Part shown: piece by piece, positions 20,402-33,295 of the stretch
Layout: every line of letters starts with the position of its first letter
Numbering within the stretch: position 1 is the first letter of the stretch
NCBI GenBank assembly: GCA_017483905.1
Contig: JAFUUG010000007.1
Span: forward strand, 1 to 33,484
Source of the DNA: Bacillota bacterium
Lineage (GTDB): Bacteria > Bacillota > Clostridia > Lachnospirales > CAG-274
Length of the DNA: 33,484 bases
Direction: 5' to 3'
Program-made: the position numbers and the translations under genes
Notes under the pieces: model-generated
Seen by the model: the letters and a program-made list of their open reading frames with translations, nothing else
What the model was told of the DNA's origin: nothing
Database searches by the model: none

Positions 20402-20710
20402 TTATTTCCCGTTCATTGCTTTAATCATTTGCATTACGGCGGCTTTCTGTTCGGTGTTGAGATTTACCCAACCCTCAAACAATTCCTTTAACTCAGGTGT
20501 CATTTCGACCATTTCTCCCTCGGCAAAGAATTGTGATAAAGTTATTCCAAACCCGTTGCAAATTGCTTGCAAGGTGCTAATGGAAGGTACAGTGTTCCGC
20601 TTAAATACATTGGCTAAAGTTGTATGTGATAATCCCGATAACTCGGACATCTTATATGTTGTCAGACCTCGTTCATCTAACATCTGTCTTAATCGTTCAT
20701 TGACATCCAT
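20402..20710 (-). CDS. XRE-family transcriptional repressor A
   Basis: A 102-residue DNA-binding protein with a Cro/CI-type helix-turn-helix at residues about 18-55 (TTYKMSELSGLSHTTLANVF, then NTVPSISTLQAICNGFGIT) and a short helical C-terminal part (SQFFAEGE, LNTEQKAAVMQMIKAMN). It is a clear paralogue of the XRE gene at 21375-21683, nearly half identical with the same length and layout. AGGTGGTGA precedes the ATG on the minus strand. It is divergent from the triple-HTH gene and shares a 138-base intergenic region with it, a classic layout for a self-regulating switch. The ligand or inducer is unknown. Confidence 0.9.
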   Translation of the reverse strand: MDVNERLRQMLDERGLTTYKMSELSGLSHTTLANVFKRNTVPSISTLQAICNGFGITLSQFFAEGEMVEMTPELKELFEGWVNLNTEQKAAVMQMIKAMNGK

Positions 20711-21349: not shown

Positions 21350-21378
21350 TGGCTTAAATTCATCACGGTAAAAATTAT
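21341..21378. terminator. Bidirectional terminator between convergent genes
   Basis: A perfect 11-base stem, TTACCGTGATG (21341-21351) and CATCACGGTAA (21361-21371), is flanked by GAAAAA on the left and AAAATTATTTTT on the right. On the minus strand the right arm reads into a T run. It overlaps the stop codon of the triple-HTH gene and ends close to the stop codon of repressor B. Confidence 0.8.
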
Positions 21379-21683
21379 TTTTGATTCATCTTTTTAAGGA
21401 GGATAAGCGCTGCATCTCTCTGTTCCTCGGATAATGCTGACCAACAATCAAGCAGATCTCGTGTTTTATCGTTTACCTCTATCAATTCTCCGTCCGCAAA
21501 GAACTGCGACATTGTAATGCCAAAGCCTTTGCAGATTGATTCCAATGTAGTGACAGAAGGAACAGCATTGCGCTTTATTATATTAGCAATGGTGGAATCT
21601 GATAAATCGCTTTCCTTTGCCAAGCGATACGCCGACCAACCTCTTTGTTTTAATAACTGTTTGATTTTCTCAGTAGCATCCAT
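21375..21683 (-). CDS. XRE-family transcriptional repressor B
   Basis: A 102-residue Cro/CI-type helix-turn-helix protein (SAYRLAKESDLSDSTIANII, then NAVPSVTTLESICKGFGIT, SQFFADGE), a paralogue of repressor A. I chose the ATG at 21683 (minus strand) because it gives the same length and N-terminus (MDATEK like MDVNER) and has GAGG eight bases upstream; an ATG five codons earlier overlaps that binding site. It is divergent from the SLOG gene and convergent with the triple-HTH gene. Recognition-helix residues differ partly from repressor A (SDSTIAN against SHTTLAN), so the two may bind related but not identical sites. Confidence 0.9.
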   Translation of the reverse strand: MDATEKIKQLLKQRGWSAYRLAKESDLSDSTIANIIKRNAVPSVTTLESICKGFGITMSQFFADGELIEVNDKTRDLLDCWSALSEEQRDAALILLKKMNQK

Positions 21684-21726
21684 ATATCCGTACCTCATTT
21701 CTGTAATAATTGTACCCTTTTCTGAA

Positions 21727-28125: not shown

Positions 28126-28324
28126 ATTCGAGGTAATTTTAGAACAGAAAAGTATAAACGGCACTATGAAATGTGGTTACCCATAGATATGAGTTTAAGA
28201 TAATTACATTTATCTCTCATTGGATAATCATAATGCGACCATTTATTTTTTGCCTTCCGGCACTTTGTGCTTGGAGGGCTTTGTTTTTGTGAGATACATT
28301 TTCAAGTTTTGTGAAAAAAAGACC
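28126..28324 (+). other. Non-coding gap after the accessory operon
   Basis: About 200 AT-rich bases between the S66 peptidase gene and the consensus promoter. The terminator at 28252-28290 is the only structure I can support; no coding frame with a start and binding site is visible. Confidence 0.55.
28252..28290 (+). terminator. Terminator of the accessory enzyme operon
   Basis: GCCTTCC (28252-28258) pairs with GGAGGGC (28273-28279) through one G-T pair, with an inner GGCAC / GTGC pairing, followed by TTTGTTTTTG. It lies about 130 bases after the S66 peptidase gene. Confidence 0.72.
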
Positions 28325-28353
28325 TTGACAAAATTTTTAAACAGAGATATAAT
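28325..28353 (+). promoter_or_regulatory. Consensus sigma-A promoter of the control block
   Basis: TTGACA (28325-28330) and TATAAT (28348-28353) are both perfect and exactly 17 bases apart, the strongest promoter in the window. Transcription would start near 28360. A LexA-like palindrome lies just downstream, and a 168-base leader separates it from the next ORF. Confidence 0.82.
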
Positions 28354-28365
28354 AGAGAACGCAAT

Positions 28366-28379
28366 CGAACAATCGTTCT
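28366..28379. promoter_or_regulatory. LexA/SOS-box-like operator
   Basis: CGAACAATCGTTCT contains the palindrome GAAC-N4-GTTC, the core of the Gram-positive LexA box (CGAAC....GTTCG), with only the last base differing. It covers about +6 to +19 of the promoter at 28325, where bound repressor would block transcription. Another palindrome-binding repressor could also use it. Confidence 0.6.
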
Positions 28380-28396
28380 AAAACGAAATAATCTCT

Positions 28397-28416
28397 CCTT
28401 GCTGCCCCGTGCAAGG
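28397..28416 (+). repeat. Leader hairpin
   Basis: CCTTGC (28397-28402) and GCAAGG (28411-28416) form a 6-base stem with an 8-base loop, followed within 20 bases by a TTTTTT run. It sits in the leader of the LexA-box transcript and may attenuate it or be a structural element. Confidence 0.5.
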
Positions 28417-28527
28417 TTTGAAATATAGTTTTTTAGGAGTTGATTAAAAAGAGTGTAGTTTTACTTTCAATTGAATATGTATCAAATTATGTGATTAAAT
28501 GAAGTTAGTATGGAAGGAAGTTAAGCA

Positions 28528-28704
28528 GTGAAGAAAACTAATTTGATAAAAACGCCGAAAGAAAGAATTACGCTTGGTGAGTGTGTCAGAACGGATACGG
28601 GAGAGCCTGCGCTGAAAGTTAAAAAGAGCAACAAGGACAAATATGAAACTATCCCTATGAGTAAGCTAATTGAGCTGATGATCCTGACATCAATTCGAAA
28701 TTAA
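28528..28704 (+). CDS. 58-residue basic protein, unknown function
   Basis: A small ORF with a GTG start, encoding MKKTNLIKTPKERITLGECV and onward to TIPMSKLIELMILTSIRN. GGAAGGAAG lies about 7 bases before the GTG. It is basic and has a predicted C-terminal helix; no known domain is recognised. It is the first ORF downstream of the consensus promoter with the LexA-like box, so it is a candidate early protein of the element. Hairpins and a strong terminator follow. It could be a small regulator or a leader ORF; the coding call rests on binding site, length without stop and context. Confidence 0.55.
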   Translation: MKKTNLIKTPKERITLGECVRTDTGEPALKVKKSNKDKYETIPMSKLIELMILTSIRN

Positions 28705-28850
28705 GCAGAAAACCCAAATGCAAGGTTTTCGCATCCACAACAAAATAAAACTCTATGATTGAGTTTAATCAAGATGAATTAAGCCGACACGAGTGTTTCC
28801 AAAGTTTCTGTAATCAGAGATTTTAGAAATGTTCGTGTCGGCTTTTTTTG
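28705..28850 (+). terminator. Hairpin run and strong terminator
   Basis: After the small ORF come GAAAACC / GGTTTTC (about 28709-28731) and AAACTC / GAGTTT (28748-28766). Then a 12-base perfect stem, AAGCCGACACGA (28781-28792) and TCGTGTCGGCTT (28833-28844), with a long loop, is followed by TTTTTGCTTTT. The last is an efficient terminator for the LexA-box transcript. Confidence 0.78.
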
Positions 28851-29536
28851 CTTTTACATATACGATTTAGGGTGTACAGACAATGTGCTGTGCTGACATA
28901 ACAGTGTTAGAATTAGCGGTTTATTTCACGATATATGACATCTCCCATATAGCCAAAACACGCTTGATTCAATGTGACAATTATAGAATTTTAGTTGTTT
29001 TTTGAGCTTTTTTACATTTTTCAGTTTTTATCTTTTTTCATTCGACAATATACTGCGGTAAACGCAACCATAGTTCGGCAAAATATTTTTCCAATTTGTA
29101 GTAGTATAGAAAGCGAGGAAATTTGACTAAATCACTGATAATAGCTGAGTTTTTGAGAATTTTCGACTGACAAAATTACCCAAAGTTTTTATGGGTATTT
29201 GTAACATCTTTACTGTTGGTGGTAAGTAGAGATTTTTTTAGCAAATCCACCATTTAAAAATATATTCAAGCCTGAGTGTACATCAGGGCGAGGATACAGA
29301 TATTGCAATACTGACCGAAAAGGTCAAAAGCAAAATCGGTACCCTTTCCTTTGTATACTCAAAATTACAAGGGTTGGTGCCGATTGGCACTAACCCTGTT
29401 TTATGCTCGTCCTGACTGCTTACGGCGGAAAGGACGTCAAATGTTTTTGCTAAAATGGCAATCATTAATCGCTAAATATCCGTAGCCTTTGGATTTTGAT
29501 TCAACCAAATTCAAAATTCAAAGGAGATTACAGTAA
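28851..29536 (+). other. Long AT-rich non-coding region before the sigma-like gene
   Basis: About 690 bases with no supported gene. It holds an imperfect TACCCA / TGGGTA repeat (about 29177-29197). A stem GGGTTGGTGCC (29371-29381) / GGCACTAACCC (29386-29396) is followed by TGTTTTAT and looks like a terminator or attenuator, and CGTCCT / AGGACG (about 29408-29436) follows. A plus-strand frame is open from about 29240 to the TGA before 29413 but has no start codon with a binding site. The region may be a regulatory leader of the sigma-like gene or a gene remnant. Confidence 0.5.
29371..29404 (+). terminator. Terminator-like hairpin upstream of the sigma-like gene
   Basis: An 11-base stem with one G-T pair (29371-29381 with 29386-29396), loop GATT, followed by TGTTTTAT. 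It lies 130 bases before the sigma-like gene, so it could be an attenuator controlling it. Confidence 0.65.
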
Positions 29537-30082
29537 ATGTTAAAAAATGATATTTCTGCTATTGAGGAGCAGTTTAATCAAGAATGTACAGTTATTGAAT
29601 TAAAATACGAATATCCCGGTTACACGGGAATTGAAAAATATGCTATCGTGAGCAGTCTTTCTCAAAAAGAGATTGAAACACGTTTTCCCGAACAAGCAAG
29701 ATCATATTCGCCATTTTTAGTTTTGGATATATCTTTTCTTGATGTAAGGCGTGATTATAGGAATAACAATAAAAAATATGAAATGAGAAGTATCCGAAGT
29801 GAGAGTGTTTTCGGTTTTAATGATAGTGATACTGAAACACATCATAAGGAGATATATGTTCCTGATTTCGTTGAACAATGGATAGAGAACTATGAATTGA
29901 AAGAAGCGATAAAACAGTTGACCGATAAGGAAAGGGATCGTTTAATTGATTACTTTTATAATGATAAGACATTAACGGAAATAGGTGATAAAGTTGGTTG
30001 TTCACCAAGAGCCGTAAAATATTCAATAGATAGCGCAATTAAAAAAATTCAAACTTTTTTTGATAGTTTACTTCAAAAATGA
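29537..30082 (+). CDS. Sigma-70-like factor of the element
   Basis: A 181-residue protein. The C-terminal 60 residues form a sigma region 4-type helix-turn-helix (LTDKERDRLIDYF, then TLTEIGDKVGCSPRAVKYSIDSAIKKIQ). The N-terminal 110 residues show no clear region 2; they contain FLVLDISFLDVRRDYRNNNKKYEMRS as in sigma-like regulators of Firmicutes ICEs. It could direct RNA polymerase to element promoters or act as an activator. AAAGGAG (29520-29526) precedes the ATG. It lies in the control block between the LexA-box unit and the MazF/excisionase/integrase genes. The sigma-like domain is clear; specificity is not. Confidence 0.82.
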   Translation: MLKNDISAIEEQFNQECTVIELKYEYPGYTGIEKYAIVSSLSQKEIETRFPEQARSYSPFLVLDISFLDVRRDYRNNNKKYEMRSIRSESVFGFNDSDTETHHKEIYVPDFVEQWIENYELKEAIKQLTDKERDRLIDYFYNDKTLTEIGDKVGCSPRAVKYSIDSAIKKIQTFFDSLLQK

Positions 30083-30151: not shown

Positions 30152-30706
30152 ATGAACAAAAAAATTGAAAGAAAAATCAAAAGGGGCGACATTTACCTTT
30201 ATGATTATGGCGAAAATGAACGCTCAATACAAAATGGATACAGACCTGTTGTAGTTTTGCAGGCAGATAACTTCAATCTCAAAGCACCTACCATTATGGT
30301 GGCGGCTATTACCACCGCCATTAAAAAGACCTTTCTTCCCTCACACATCTTGATAGAGGATAAGTATGGGCTGACTGATCCTTCAATGATTATGCTCGAA
30401 CAGCAGAGAGCTGTGAACAAGGAGCAGTTAGTCAATTATGTAGGTCATATCAACGACGACAACGTCTTGCGCCGCATTCATAACGGCTTAATGAAGCTGT
30501 ACGGATATTGGGACTACACCCGATATAACAAGGCTAATATCCGGTGTCTGTGTCCGAGCTGCTTGAACAAGTACAAATATGTGCCGGAGCTGATTGTGAA
30601 GCGAGTTGATCCGCTGACCAATATCAAGGATAGGTGTGACCAATGTCAGGGCTTTGGCTATGACTACTTCGTCTTTGAGAAGCCGAGGAGAGAGAAAAAT
30701 GGATAA
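30152..30706 (+). CDS. MazF/PemK-like protein with C-terminal zinc ribbon
   Basis: A 184-residue protein with two parts. Residues about 10-115 match the MazF/PemK fold (RGDIYLYDYG, GYRPVVVLQADNFN, APTIMVAAITTAIKKTFLP, IMLEQQRAVNKEQLVNYVGHI), the toxin family that cleaves mRNA. Residues about 130-180 hold CLCPSCL and CDQCQGFGYDYF, a zinc-ribbon-like module. No antitoxin gene is adjacent: the neighbour is an excisionase-like gene that overlaps its end by 8 bases. AAGAGG lies before the ATG at 30152. It might be a tamed regulator of element mRNA instead of a free toxin. The fold call is good. Confidence 0.82.
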   Translation: MNKKIERKIKRGDIYLYDYGENERSIQNGYRPVVVLQADNFNLKAPTIMVAAITTAIKKTFLPSHILIEDKYGLTDPSMIMLEQQRAVNKEQLVNYVGHINDDNVLRRIHNGLMKLYGYWDYTRYNKANIRCLCPSCLNKYKYVPELIVKRVDPLTNIKDRCDQCQGFGYDYFVFEKPRREKNG

Positions 30707-30926
30707 TGAAAATGCTGCTATCCCTGCCAAAAGAATTGAAGTTCCTGTCTGGGAAAAATCAACGCTGACATTAGATGAAGCCGCTGCTTATTCAGGTATC
30801 GGAAAAAACAAGCTACGAACTCTTACGGACAAAGAAGATTGTAACTTTGTTTTATGGATAGGTAGTAAGCGCCTTATAAAGCGTGAAATGTTAGATGAAT
30901 ACATCAGAGAAGCGTTTTCAATATAA
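30699..30926 (+). CDS. xis: Excisionase-like HTH protein (Xis)
   Basis: A 75-residue protein matching the Tn916-type excisionase family: a winged-helix-like TLTLDEAAAYSGIGKNKLRTL (about 23-42), then FVLWIGSKRLIKREMLDEYI. Such proteins bend DNA at the element ends and direct the integrase to excise. The ATG at 30699 overlaps the MazF-like stop codon region by 8 bases, with GAGGAGAGAG before it, indicating coupled translation. It is followed by a structured 113-base gap and the integrase gene, the standard order of Tn916-like elements. Confidence 0.85.
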   Translation: MDNENAAIPAKRIEVPVWEKSTLTLDEAAAYSGIGKNKLRTLTDKEDCNFVLWIGSKRLIKREMLDEYIREAFSI

Positions 30927-31039: not shown

Positions 31040-32275
31040 ATGGCTACCAAACGAAAAGATTCACATAGGATTGTTTTGAAAAAAGGAGAATACCAGCGAA
31101 CCAATGGCACTTATGCTTACCGTTGGACAGATGGAAAAGGTAAGCGCCACGAGGTTTACGCAAGAGATTTAGATGACCTCAGAGCCAAAGAAAAAGAGAT
31201 AGACGCTGATACCAATGAAGGGATAAAGGTGGAAGCTCGCTATGTTATTATAAATGAGATGTACGACTTGTGGGTACAGCTTAAAAGAGGAATAAAGGAT
31301 AACACCTTTGAAAACTACAAGTATATGTATAACACTTTTGTACGTCCGTCTTTTGGTAAGAAAAGGATTCAGACCTTAAAAAAGTCTGATGTAAAGATTT
31401 TCTATAACTATCTTGCGGATCAAAGATGTTTACAGGCTTCTACAATAGACAGTATTCATAATGTCCTTCATCAAGTGTTGGATATGGCTGTAGACGATAA
31501 ATATATTCGTAGCAACCCTTCTGATAAGGCTTTGAAAGAGTTGAAGCAATCGCACGCATTCAAAACTGAGAAAAGACGTGCGTTAACTATTGCTGAACAA
31601 GAGCTTTTTCTTAACTACCTACGCAATAACGAAACCTATTCGCATTGGTATCCAATTTTCGCTGTTATGCTCGGCACCGGTATGAGAGTTGGAGAAATAA
31701 CAGGATTAAGGTGGTGTGATATTGACCTTGATAATGGTGTAATTGATATTAACCATACTTTGGTGTATTACTGCCATAGGCACGAAGTTGAGTTGAATGG
31801 GTGCTACTTCAATATCAACACACCGAAAACAAAAGCAAGCAACCGCAAAATACCAATGATTGAATCTGTTAAGGAAGCATTTCTGATGGAGAAAGCTAAT
31901 CAGGAAAAATCGGGTATTAAGTGTTCAGCAGTTATTGATGGATACTCGGATTTCATCTTTGTAAATCGCAACGGTAAAACGCAACATCAAGGAACACTCA
32001 ACAAGGCAATAAGAAGAATAATCAGAGATTGCAACGATGAGGTTTTGCTTAATGATGAAAATGCAACAGTTTTGCTTCCGCACTTTTCTTGCCATTCGCT
32101 TCGACACACTTTTTCTACACGAATGTGTGAAGCTGGTATCAATGTCAAAGTGATACAAGATACTTTGGGACATCAAGATATTTCAACCACAATGAATATC
32201 TACACTGACGCTACAAAAGAAATGAAGAAACAAGAATTTGAAAGCCTTGATAACTACTTGAAGAAAGCAGTATAG
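31040..32275 (+). CDS. int: Tyrosine integrase (Tn916 type)
   Basis: A 411-residue recombinase for integration and excision. The N-terminal part (about 1-60) is an AP2-like arm-site binding domain (YRWTDGKGKRHEVYARDLDD). Residues about 70-170 form the SAM-like core-binding domain (NTFENYKYMYNTFVRP). The catalytic domain shows Arg216 in GTGMRVGEI, Lys in TPKTKASNRK, His352 and Arg355 in HSLRHTF, His378 in LGHQDIS and Tyr388 in MNIYTDAT. All key residues are present and the length is normal. The gene ends at a long terminator, followed by TTACGCCA repeats that are likely arm sites. It is the last gene of the element. Confidence 0.96.
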   Translation: MATKRKDSHRIVLKKGEYQRTNGTYAYRWTDGKGKRHEVYARDLDDLRAKEKEIDADTNEGIKVEARYVIINEMYDLWVQLKRGIKDNTFENYKYMYNTFVRPSFGKKRIQTLKKSDVKIFYNYLADQRCLQASTIDSIHNVLHQVLDMAVDDKYIRSNPSDKALKELKQSHAFKTEKRRALTIAEQELFLNYLRNNETYSHWYPIFAVMLGTGMRVGEITGLRWCDIDLDNGVIDINHTLVYYCHRHEVELNGCYFNINTPKTKASNRKIPMIESVKEAFLMEKANQEKSGIKCSAVIDGYSDFIFVNRNGKTQHQGTLNKAIRRIIRDCNDEVLLNDENATVLLPHFSCHSLRHTFSTRMCEAGINVKVIQDTLGHQDISTTMNIYTDATKEMKKQEFESLDNYLKKAV

Positions 32276-32354: not shown

Positions 32355-32588
32355 TTACGCCACTTACGCCAAAACTTACGCCAAATGGAACAACCTGAAC
32401 ACGAGAAATGGCTTATCCTCTACGGAAATAGTCAGTTTATGGCTCTTGACAGATGTAGGATTTATGGTAGAATAATAATTGTAAGTGTGACAGTTAATTG
32501 CTGAGAAAGCGCTATGATAAATGCCCCGTTTTTAGCTGCTTACGCCACTTACGCCTATATTTACGCCATTTACGCCAACCTTACGCCA
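32355..32588 (+). repeat. TTACGCCA direct repeats, probable integrase arm sites
   Basis: Eight copies of TTACGCCA (one ends in T) in two groups. Group 1 starts at 32355, 32364 and 32376. Group 2 starts at 32540, 32549, 32561, 32570 and 32581. Steps are 9 and 12 bases in group 1, and 9, 12, 9 and 11 in group 2. Their place between the integrase gene and the element end fits arm sites for the N-terminal domain of the integrase. A replication iteron is an alternative. Confidence 0.75.
32446..32473 (+). promoter_or_regulatory. Outward-facing promoter between the repeat groups
   Basis: TTGACA (32446-32451) and TAGAAT (32468-32473) with a 16-base spacer point to the right, out of the element. No gene of the element lies downstream before the end. 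After circularisation it would read across the joined ends into the left end. Confidence 0.55.
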
Positions 32589-32691: not shown

Positions 32692-32720
32692 TAGACAAAT
32701 CGGCGTTGACGTGTTATAAT
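32692..32720 (+). promoter_or_regulatory. Promoter of the GNAT gene at 32756
   Basis: TAGACA (32692-32697) and TATAAT (32715-32720) with a 17-base spacer, within the same flanking pattern (TGATAGACAAA, then C.TAG.AG) as the promoters at 17555 and 33267. Confidence 0.75.
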
Positions 32721-33266: not shown

Positions 33267-33295
33267 TAGACAAACCGGAGTTGCCGTGCTATAAT
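33267..33295 (+). promoter_or_regulatory. Promoter of the second GNAT gene
   Basis: TAGACA (33267-33272) and TATAAT (33290-33295) with a 17-base spacer, third copy of the TGATAGACAAA / TATAATC promoter type in the window. Confidence 0.75.

Follow-up and report, generated by a model that had tools for sequence, protein, structure and literature searches.

The window, by which we mean the whole analysed stretch of 33,484 nucleotides, encodes an excisionase and a tyrosine integrase of the Tn916 type, and on this gene content the element that it carries is classed as a Tn916-like ICE. The block containing these two genes also codes for a PemK/MazF-like protein and a protein resembling region 4 of sigma-70. 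It opens with a compact segment that comprises a promoter, a palindromic box, a leader, a 58-residue ORF and a structured RNA ending in a terminator (Table 1). The element additionally encodes two HTH repressor-like proteins on the opposite strand.

Table 1. Features of the control block and of the two HTH genes (positions in the window)
Feature	Position	Strand	Basis
HTH repressor-like protein	20402-20710	-	
HTH repressor-like protein	21375-21698	-	
Sigma-A type promoter, perfect TTGACA-N17-TATAAT	28325-28353	+	12/12 matches; hexamers kept in L005 and L006
LexA-type box TCGAACAATCGTTCTA, core GAAC-N4-GTTC at 28367-28378	28365-28380	+	arms kept in related elements; top host-matrix site of the window
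5' leader	28382-28527	+	82-84% identical to L005/L006 from 28396 on
58-residue ORF, GTG start 28528, stop 28702-28704	28528-28704	+	coding constraint; family membership; predicted beta-beta-beta-beta-alpha
Conserved structured 3' RNA	28703-28850	+	phage-only covariance model 60.9 bits, E 7.8e-13; covariation
Hairpin 1	about 28705-28732	+	part of 3' RNA
Hairpin 2	28748-28766	+	part of 3' RNA
Hairpin 3	about 28767-28780	+	part of 3' RNA
Terminator	hairpin 28783-28842, T-run 28843-28849	+	end of 3' RNA
Sigma-70 region-4 like protein	29537-30082	+	Sigma70_r4 6e-8; first gene past terminator
PemK/MazF-like protein, same downstream block	30152-30706	+	PF02452 1.2e-21
Tn916-type excisionase	30636-30926	+	PF09035 6e-20
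Tn916-type tyrosine integrase	31040-32275	+	PF02920 3.5e-16, PF00589 1.7e-31

The ORF has relatives in five species-representative contigs; plasmid records yielded no DNA or protein relative. Two of the five (L003 and L004) are near-identical copies, and two others, from a Ruminococcus genome (L005) and from R. bromii (L006), are 80-84% identical across the block; the fifth (L007) retains only the 3' part of the ORF. Homology between the window and L004 begins at 28199, in agreement with a preliminary description of this DNA that had placed the promoter at the start of a control and integration block. The cargo to which the block is joined differs (window 28199, L004 4672, L005 89-4164, L006 299-4695). 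In the window it consists of genes for a methyltransferase and an LD-carboxypeptidase, in L006 of a type III restriction-modification pair, and in L005 of a gene whose AAA-protein product is similar to a candidate defence protein; position 28199 therefore appears to be the boundary of a module. In the window some 380 bp (28848-29254) separate the terminator from the conserved stretch that comes next, as against about 25 bp in L005 and L006. The latter stretch (29255-29400), again non-coding, precedes the sigma-like gene; within it a strong hairpin, AGGGTTGGTGCC-GATT-GGCACTAACCCT, leads into T-rich sequence.

The promoter had been described as perfect on both hexamers and as the strongest seen. 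Indeed TTGACA (28325-28330) and TATAAT (28348-28353) are separated by 17 nucleotides, and this is the only perfect promoter on either strand of the window, where a Markov model of the window predicts 0.0125; under the same model the pair of promoter and box did not arise in any of 400 simulations. Three further promoters with 11/12 matches, all with TG before the -10, cluster after int near the right end of the window (32446-32473, 32692-32720 and 33267-33295). The palindrome GAACAATCGTTC (28367-28378) begins 14 nt past the -10 and, given a transcription start near 28360, would occupy about +8 to +19, close to the +6 to +19 first proposed. By itself it is weak evidence because the bare GAACN4GTTC pattern occurs twice in the window against 0.5 expected. 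Its placement is not due to chance, since a search of 392 genomes of the order found a perfect promoter followed within 5-25 nt by GAACN4GTTC 54 times, distributed over 52 of them, against no match for a reversed control pattern.

Survival of the palindrome in related elements had been set as a test of its significance, and its arms do survive. Comparison of the window with the diverged relatives L005 and L006 shows both hexamers identical at 6/6 positions and the palindrome arms at 8/8, whereas identity is 59% in the spacer, about 33% between the -10 and the box, and 43-50% past the box. Within the 16-base box the window, L005 and L006 differ solely in the N4 (AATC, AATA, AACA). Conserved hexamers and arms amid diverged flanks amount to a footprint, although one drawn from just three haplotypes, two of which are close to each other.

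To compare the box with the SOS boxes of the hosts, a symmetric matrix was derived from nine sites in host lexA, umuC and recQ promoters, with the element's own box excluded. The window box ranks first in the window at 19.2 bits, the next site scoring 12.5, and the boxes of L005 and L006 score 16.5 and, more weakly, 11.6 bits (P per position 5e-7, 1.5e-6 and 1.2e-5 for window, L005 and L006). In hosts carrying the element, R. bromii-type umuC genes have the boxes TAGAACAAGTGTTCTA and AAAAACAAATGTTCGA, and TAAAACAAATGTTTGA stands ahead of lexA, as does TCGAACAAATTTTCGC ahead of a recQ-like gene; a LexA using such boxes is present in the hosts of L003, L005, L006 and L007. R. bromii-type umuC promoters bear two LexA-type boxes, one between the -35 and the -10 and one past the -10 (L221 1474-1514; L247 1475-1516). 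In another family of the order, genes for a LysM (YneA-like) protein and for radical-SAM proteins of a repair type show the same layout of promoter followed by box, in an SOS-like manner. The preliminary reading of the box as LexA-like thus agrees with its resemblance to these host sites, and control of the 28325 promoter by LexA is, judged from sequence, likely.

The window's own genome, which is 92% complete, yielded neither lexA nor a LexA DNA-binding domain, and LexA occurs in 42/48 genomes of its family. The pattern CGAACN4GTTC occurs only twice in this genome, a count at first taken to speak against LexA; but the outer bases of host boxes vary. GAACN4GTTC was rejected as a host-wide SOS box of the window's family, as the exact core was absent from all 30 lexA upstream regions searched, and one genus of the family has related boxes (AGAACTAATTTTCG). 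The usable comparison for SOS boxes is that with R. bromii-type hosts, and the host-wide box statistics are those of pattern searches.

Past the box, the leader matches L005 and L006 at 115/137 and 112/137 positions, though synonymous sites of the ORF are near saturation; from 28396 to 28527 it is conserved at the DNA level as much as the ORF. A hairpin CCTTGC-N8-GCAAGG (28397-28416) is kept, without compensatory changes, and the overall fold of the leader is no better than that of shuffled sequences (z +0.31). A conserved leader peptide was considered and rejected: a TTG-initiated frame (MIKKSVVLLSIEYVSNYV...) that is open in the window and in L005 is joined to the ORF has the region of its start displaced in L006. 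The conservation is accounted for neither by such a peptide nor by covarying structure. Similarities to the leader elsewhere (L215-L219) were dismissed as chance matches in AT-rich DNA.

The ORF is preceded by a Shine-Dalgarno-like GGAAGGAAG and is a real gene under purifying selection, with dS 1.24, dN 0.076 and dN/dS about 0.06 between the window and L005. Conservation of its frame among relatives, which had also been put forward as a check, holds in part: the frame is constrained relative to L005, but a 4-nt deletion disrupts it in L006, causing a frameshift, and L007 has it reduced to its 3' part. Searches of Pfam, NCBIfam, PHROGs and PADLOC returned no credible match for the protein. A tblastn search uncovered a protein 44-51% identical to it in the Oscillospirales phage PV036458, and two scans over viral contigs added further diverged members. 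By sequence comparison these define an uncatalogued family of 58-72 aa proteins with an invariant TP...I..GE core and a predicted beta4-alpha fold, which AlphaFold2 models confidently for the window protein (pLDDT 91). Foldseek recovered no significant match among solved structures, and one uncharacterised phage protein matches the predicted fold with a TM of 0.84. The weak matches of the model to the single-strand binding folds of PC4 and Pur-alpha (Z 2.8-3.5, rmsd 3.6-5 over 50-54 residues) might serve as a lead and do not amount to an assignment.

The RNA lies directly 3' of the stop codon or overlaps it in every full-length ICE and phage copy inspected. Besides the window copy, the covariance model, for which just eight phage copies were used, finds all the ICE relatives, together with a diverged copy (L270). 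On 14 copies, in an alignment that was fitted to the model and so favours the result, 96% of cells are paired, a share that falls to 31-42% on sliding the partner strand; both sides have changed in 18 pairs, and 68 cells show double changes compared with 24 in shuffles. In phage copies hairpins 1 and 3 repeat a C-AAGN-G motif followed by a bulged A. Rfam gave no match at its gathering score, and a permissive search of it returned two matches at chance level. Matches of the model on the opposite strand at the terminator were discarded, as they arise from the near-palindromic sequence. The RNA is rare in cellular genomes: among 373 of the order it was found in the window and as one weak match, and among 376 of the R. 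bromii family in R. bromii and three further genomes, two of which carry the phage version.

The same combination of protein and RNA occurs in the early regions of Oscillospirales phages, often beside the SOS polymerase gene umuC. The cassette there follows umuC, an HTH gene or both; umuC is upstream in the same stretch in L255, L256, L257, L259, L270 and L271, and L256 also carries a Peptidase_S24 (LexA/CI-type) repressor. Since the phage cassette closes an early stretch that often holds umuC, it is common to phages and ICEs as a unit. The phage cassette promoters lack GAACN4GTTC, and LexA control is therefore not part of the cassette everywhere. In several phage copies the cassette is followed by genes with weak region-4 or HTH similarity. 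Past the terminator of L251, L256, L279, L280 and L282, a gene on the same strand that has its own ribosome site begins after about 25-40 nt, a gap too short for a promoter, so that the terminator must be passed; in L255, L257, L263, L265 and L271 the next gene is convergent and readthrough is not required. Several phages have a second tiny conserved gene after the cassette (51-53 aa, KRVCD...ITANPDGTL; L251 1771-1926, L263 3767-3922, L271 5106-5264). One host genome from the R. bromii family encodes a protein distantly related to the small protein, again with a 3' end that is RNA-like (L282 1292-1558, on the reverse complement of the locus).

Based on these observations we consider the segment to be most likely an SOS-type early-control cassette of a Tn916-like ICE, perhaps one acting by antitermination. 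A dimer of host LexA would sit on the box just past the transcription start and block the very strong promoter. DNA damage would remove LexA and release a predicted transcript of about 490 nt, which runs through the leader and the small protein gene into the four-hairpin RNA and is closed by the terminator at 28783-28849. As this terminator precedes the sigma-like, PemK-like, xis and int genes, direct read-out into xis and int would require readthrough, and simple transcription through into them is not supported by the sequence, which complicates the earlier suggestion that the ORF triggers excision. The protein and the RNA hairpins might instead jointly decide whether polymerase, or the message, passes into these genes, a layout that would suit a small-protein plus RNA switch of antitermination or attenuation, as in ConAn1/conAn2 of pLS20. 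A promoter released from LexA, a small protein and an RNA acting jointly on passage into the early genes would make up the simplest scheme in which every part has a use. That protein and RNA form one functional unit seems fairly probable, and we lean mildly towards such a unit being combined with LexA control. Antitermination as the mechanism is a tentative suggestion that may well prove wrong. In its fullest form the proposal would be a portable protein-RNA antitermination switch of gut Clostridia phages and Tn916-like ICEs, placed in the ICE under direct host LexA, such that upon damage the protein binds its own hairpins and polymerase passes the terminator into the excision genes; this complete scheme is speculative and on balance unlikely. 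As the cassette is shared by the ICE and gut phages, it is probably a damage-triggered control switch of both.

Non-LexA readings of the box had to be examined because the survey of the order showed its core, where it follows a perfect promoter, to be tied to regulators that vary from family to family. In a genus of the host's own family (g6) and in another family (f9) the same combination precedes genes whose products are ArsR-like repressors, metal-binding proteins and metal ATPases, so that the palindrome might be the operator of an ArsR/SmtB-type metal sensor sharing the core, or else of an HTH repressor of the element. Their extended operators read TATGAACAnnTGTTCATA (of the TGAACA-N2-TGTTCA type) as against ATCGAACAATCGTTCTAA in the window, no metal gene adjoins the window box, and no similar box was found within the element near its HTH genes. 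The window box also matches LexA boxes in its flanks. An ArsR-type operator was rejected on account of flanks and neighbouring genes, and an operator of another regulator in general appears quite improbable. A perfect promoter with TATGAACAnnTGTTCATA before metal genes (L042-L050, L052) is a possible cause of false LexA calls. One might further suppose a constitutive strong promoter with a chance palindrome, and in the ORF a decaying passenger; the palindrome alone is only mildly unusual in number, and the ORF carries a frameshift in L006 and is cut short in L007. Against this stand the arms kept amid diverged flanks, the host-matrix score, the low dN/dS and the homology of the RNA, and we strongly disfavour it as scarcely credible.

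The main alternative to the antitermination model would be a small LexA-controlled antirepressor, with the 58-residue protein binding and thereby inactivating one of the element's repressors so that damage frees excision, and the 3' RNA merely terminating or stabilising the message. Such antirepressors are an established tie of mobile elements to the SOS response (PMC3121763), the element encodes two candidate targets in its HTH repressor-like proteins, and the phage cassette likewise adjoins HTH repressor-like genes. We nevertheless judge it distinctly unlikely: it leaves unexplained the three covarying hairpins before the terminator, which are kept while neighbouring genes change, the ORF in phages comes late in its group of genes, behind umuC or an HTH gene, and the protein lacks similarity to any catalogued family. 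Alternatively, the 3' structure could function in trans as an sRNA or serve to stabilise the 3' end, with the protein working elsewhere as an SOS effector, on UmuC or single-stranded DNA for instance. The predicted transcript of about 490 nt, driven by a very strong promoter, terminated and structured at its 3' end, resembles a processed 3' sRNA, and the motif repeated in hairpins 1 and 3, the weak fold similarity to PC4/Pur-alpha and the association with umuC in phages are all in keeping with this. A role in cis is better suited by the strictness with which ORF and RNA are coupled and, in some copies, by genes that lie just past the terminator and lack a promoter, which makes this reading rather unlikely.

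If our preferred interpretation of a LexA-controlled cassette is true, SOS control of ICE excision in gut Clostridia would run from host LexA directly to an element-borne cassette, and DNA-damaging drugs could therefore mobilise such elements in the gut with no need for the element to have a cleavable repressor. Whatever the part played by LexA, a family of small proteins that is uncatalogued and joined to a covarying RNA in phages and ICEs points to an undescribed form of early-gene control. Control of the SetR type in SXT and of the ImmR/ImmA type in ICEBs1 (PMC11658703) works by cleavage or proteolysis of the element's repressor. The outcome sought, mobilisation upon a stress signal, is common to these and the window element, which differs from both in the predicted host LexA box at its own promoter. 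The preliminary description regarded direct LexA control of a small leading ORF as a different wiring; it is not a new one, since the small antirepressors of the Gifsy prophages are governed by LexA directly, and their genes, like that in the window, belong to a mobile element and lie outside the repressor region (PMC3121763). No sequence relation to them was found, and the window gene ends in a structured RNA and lies beside ICE integration genes. LexA wiring thus has prophage precedents, and what is new is the protein-RNA cassette. Phage GIL01 similarly offers a mobile element of a Gram-positive host with LexA directly at a promoter, where host LexA binds a set of SOS boxes with gp7 as its partner (PMC4551915); in the window such binding is predicted from sequence, and a gp7-type partner was not identified in the element.

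Antitermination by RNA, with or without a protein, exists in comparable conjugative elements (PMC8955417, PMC11658703). In Tn916 the antiterminator RNA canT is situated between orf8 and xis and works without a protein of the element (PMC11658703); the window RNA is likewise a structured RNA in the regulatory and excision region of a Tn916-type element, but it is located upstream of the sigma-like gene and after a protein-coding gene. Closer in layout, which is the level of comparison here rather than sequence, is ConAn1/conAn2, the bipartite antitermination system of pLS20-type conjugative elements (PMC8955417, PMC11658703). Both have a small protein gene and a structured RNA near the start of the set of genes to be controlled, in the control region of a Gram-positive conjugative element and with intrinsic terminators before the target genes. 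The window cassette, whose antitermination is putative, differs from it in that its RNA includes the terminator itself and in that the cassette is also found in phages.
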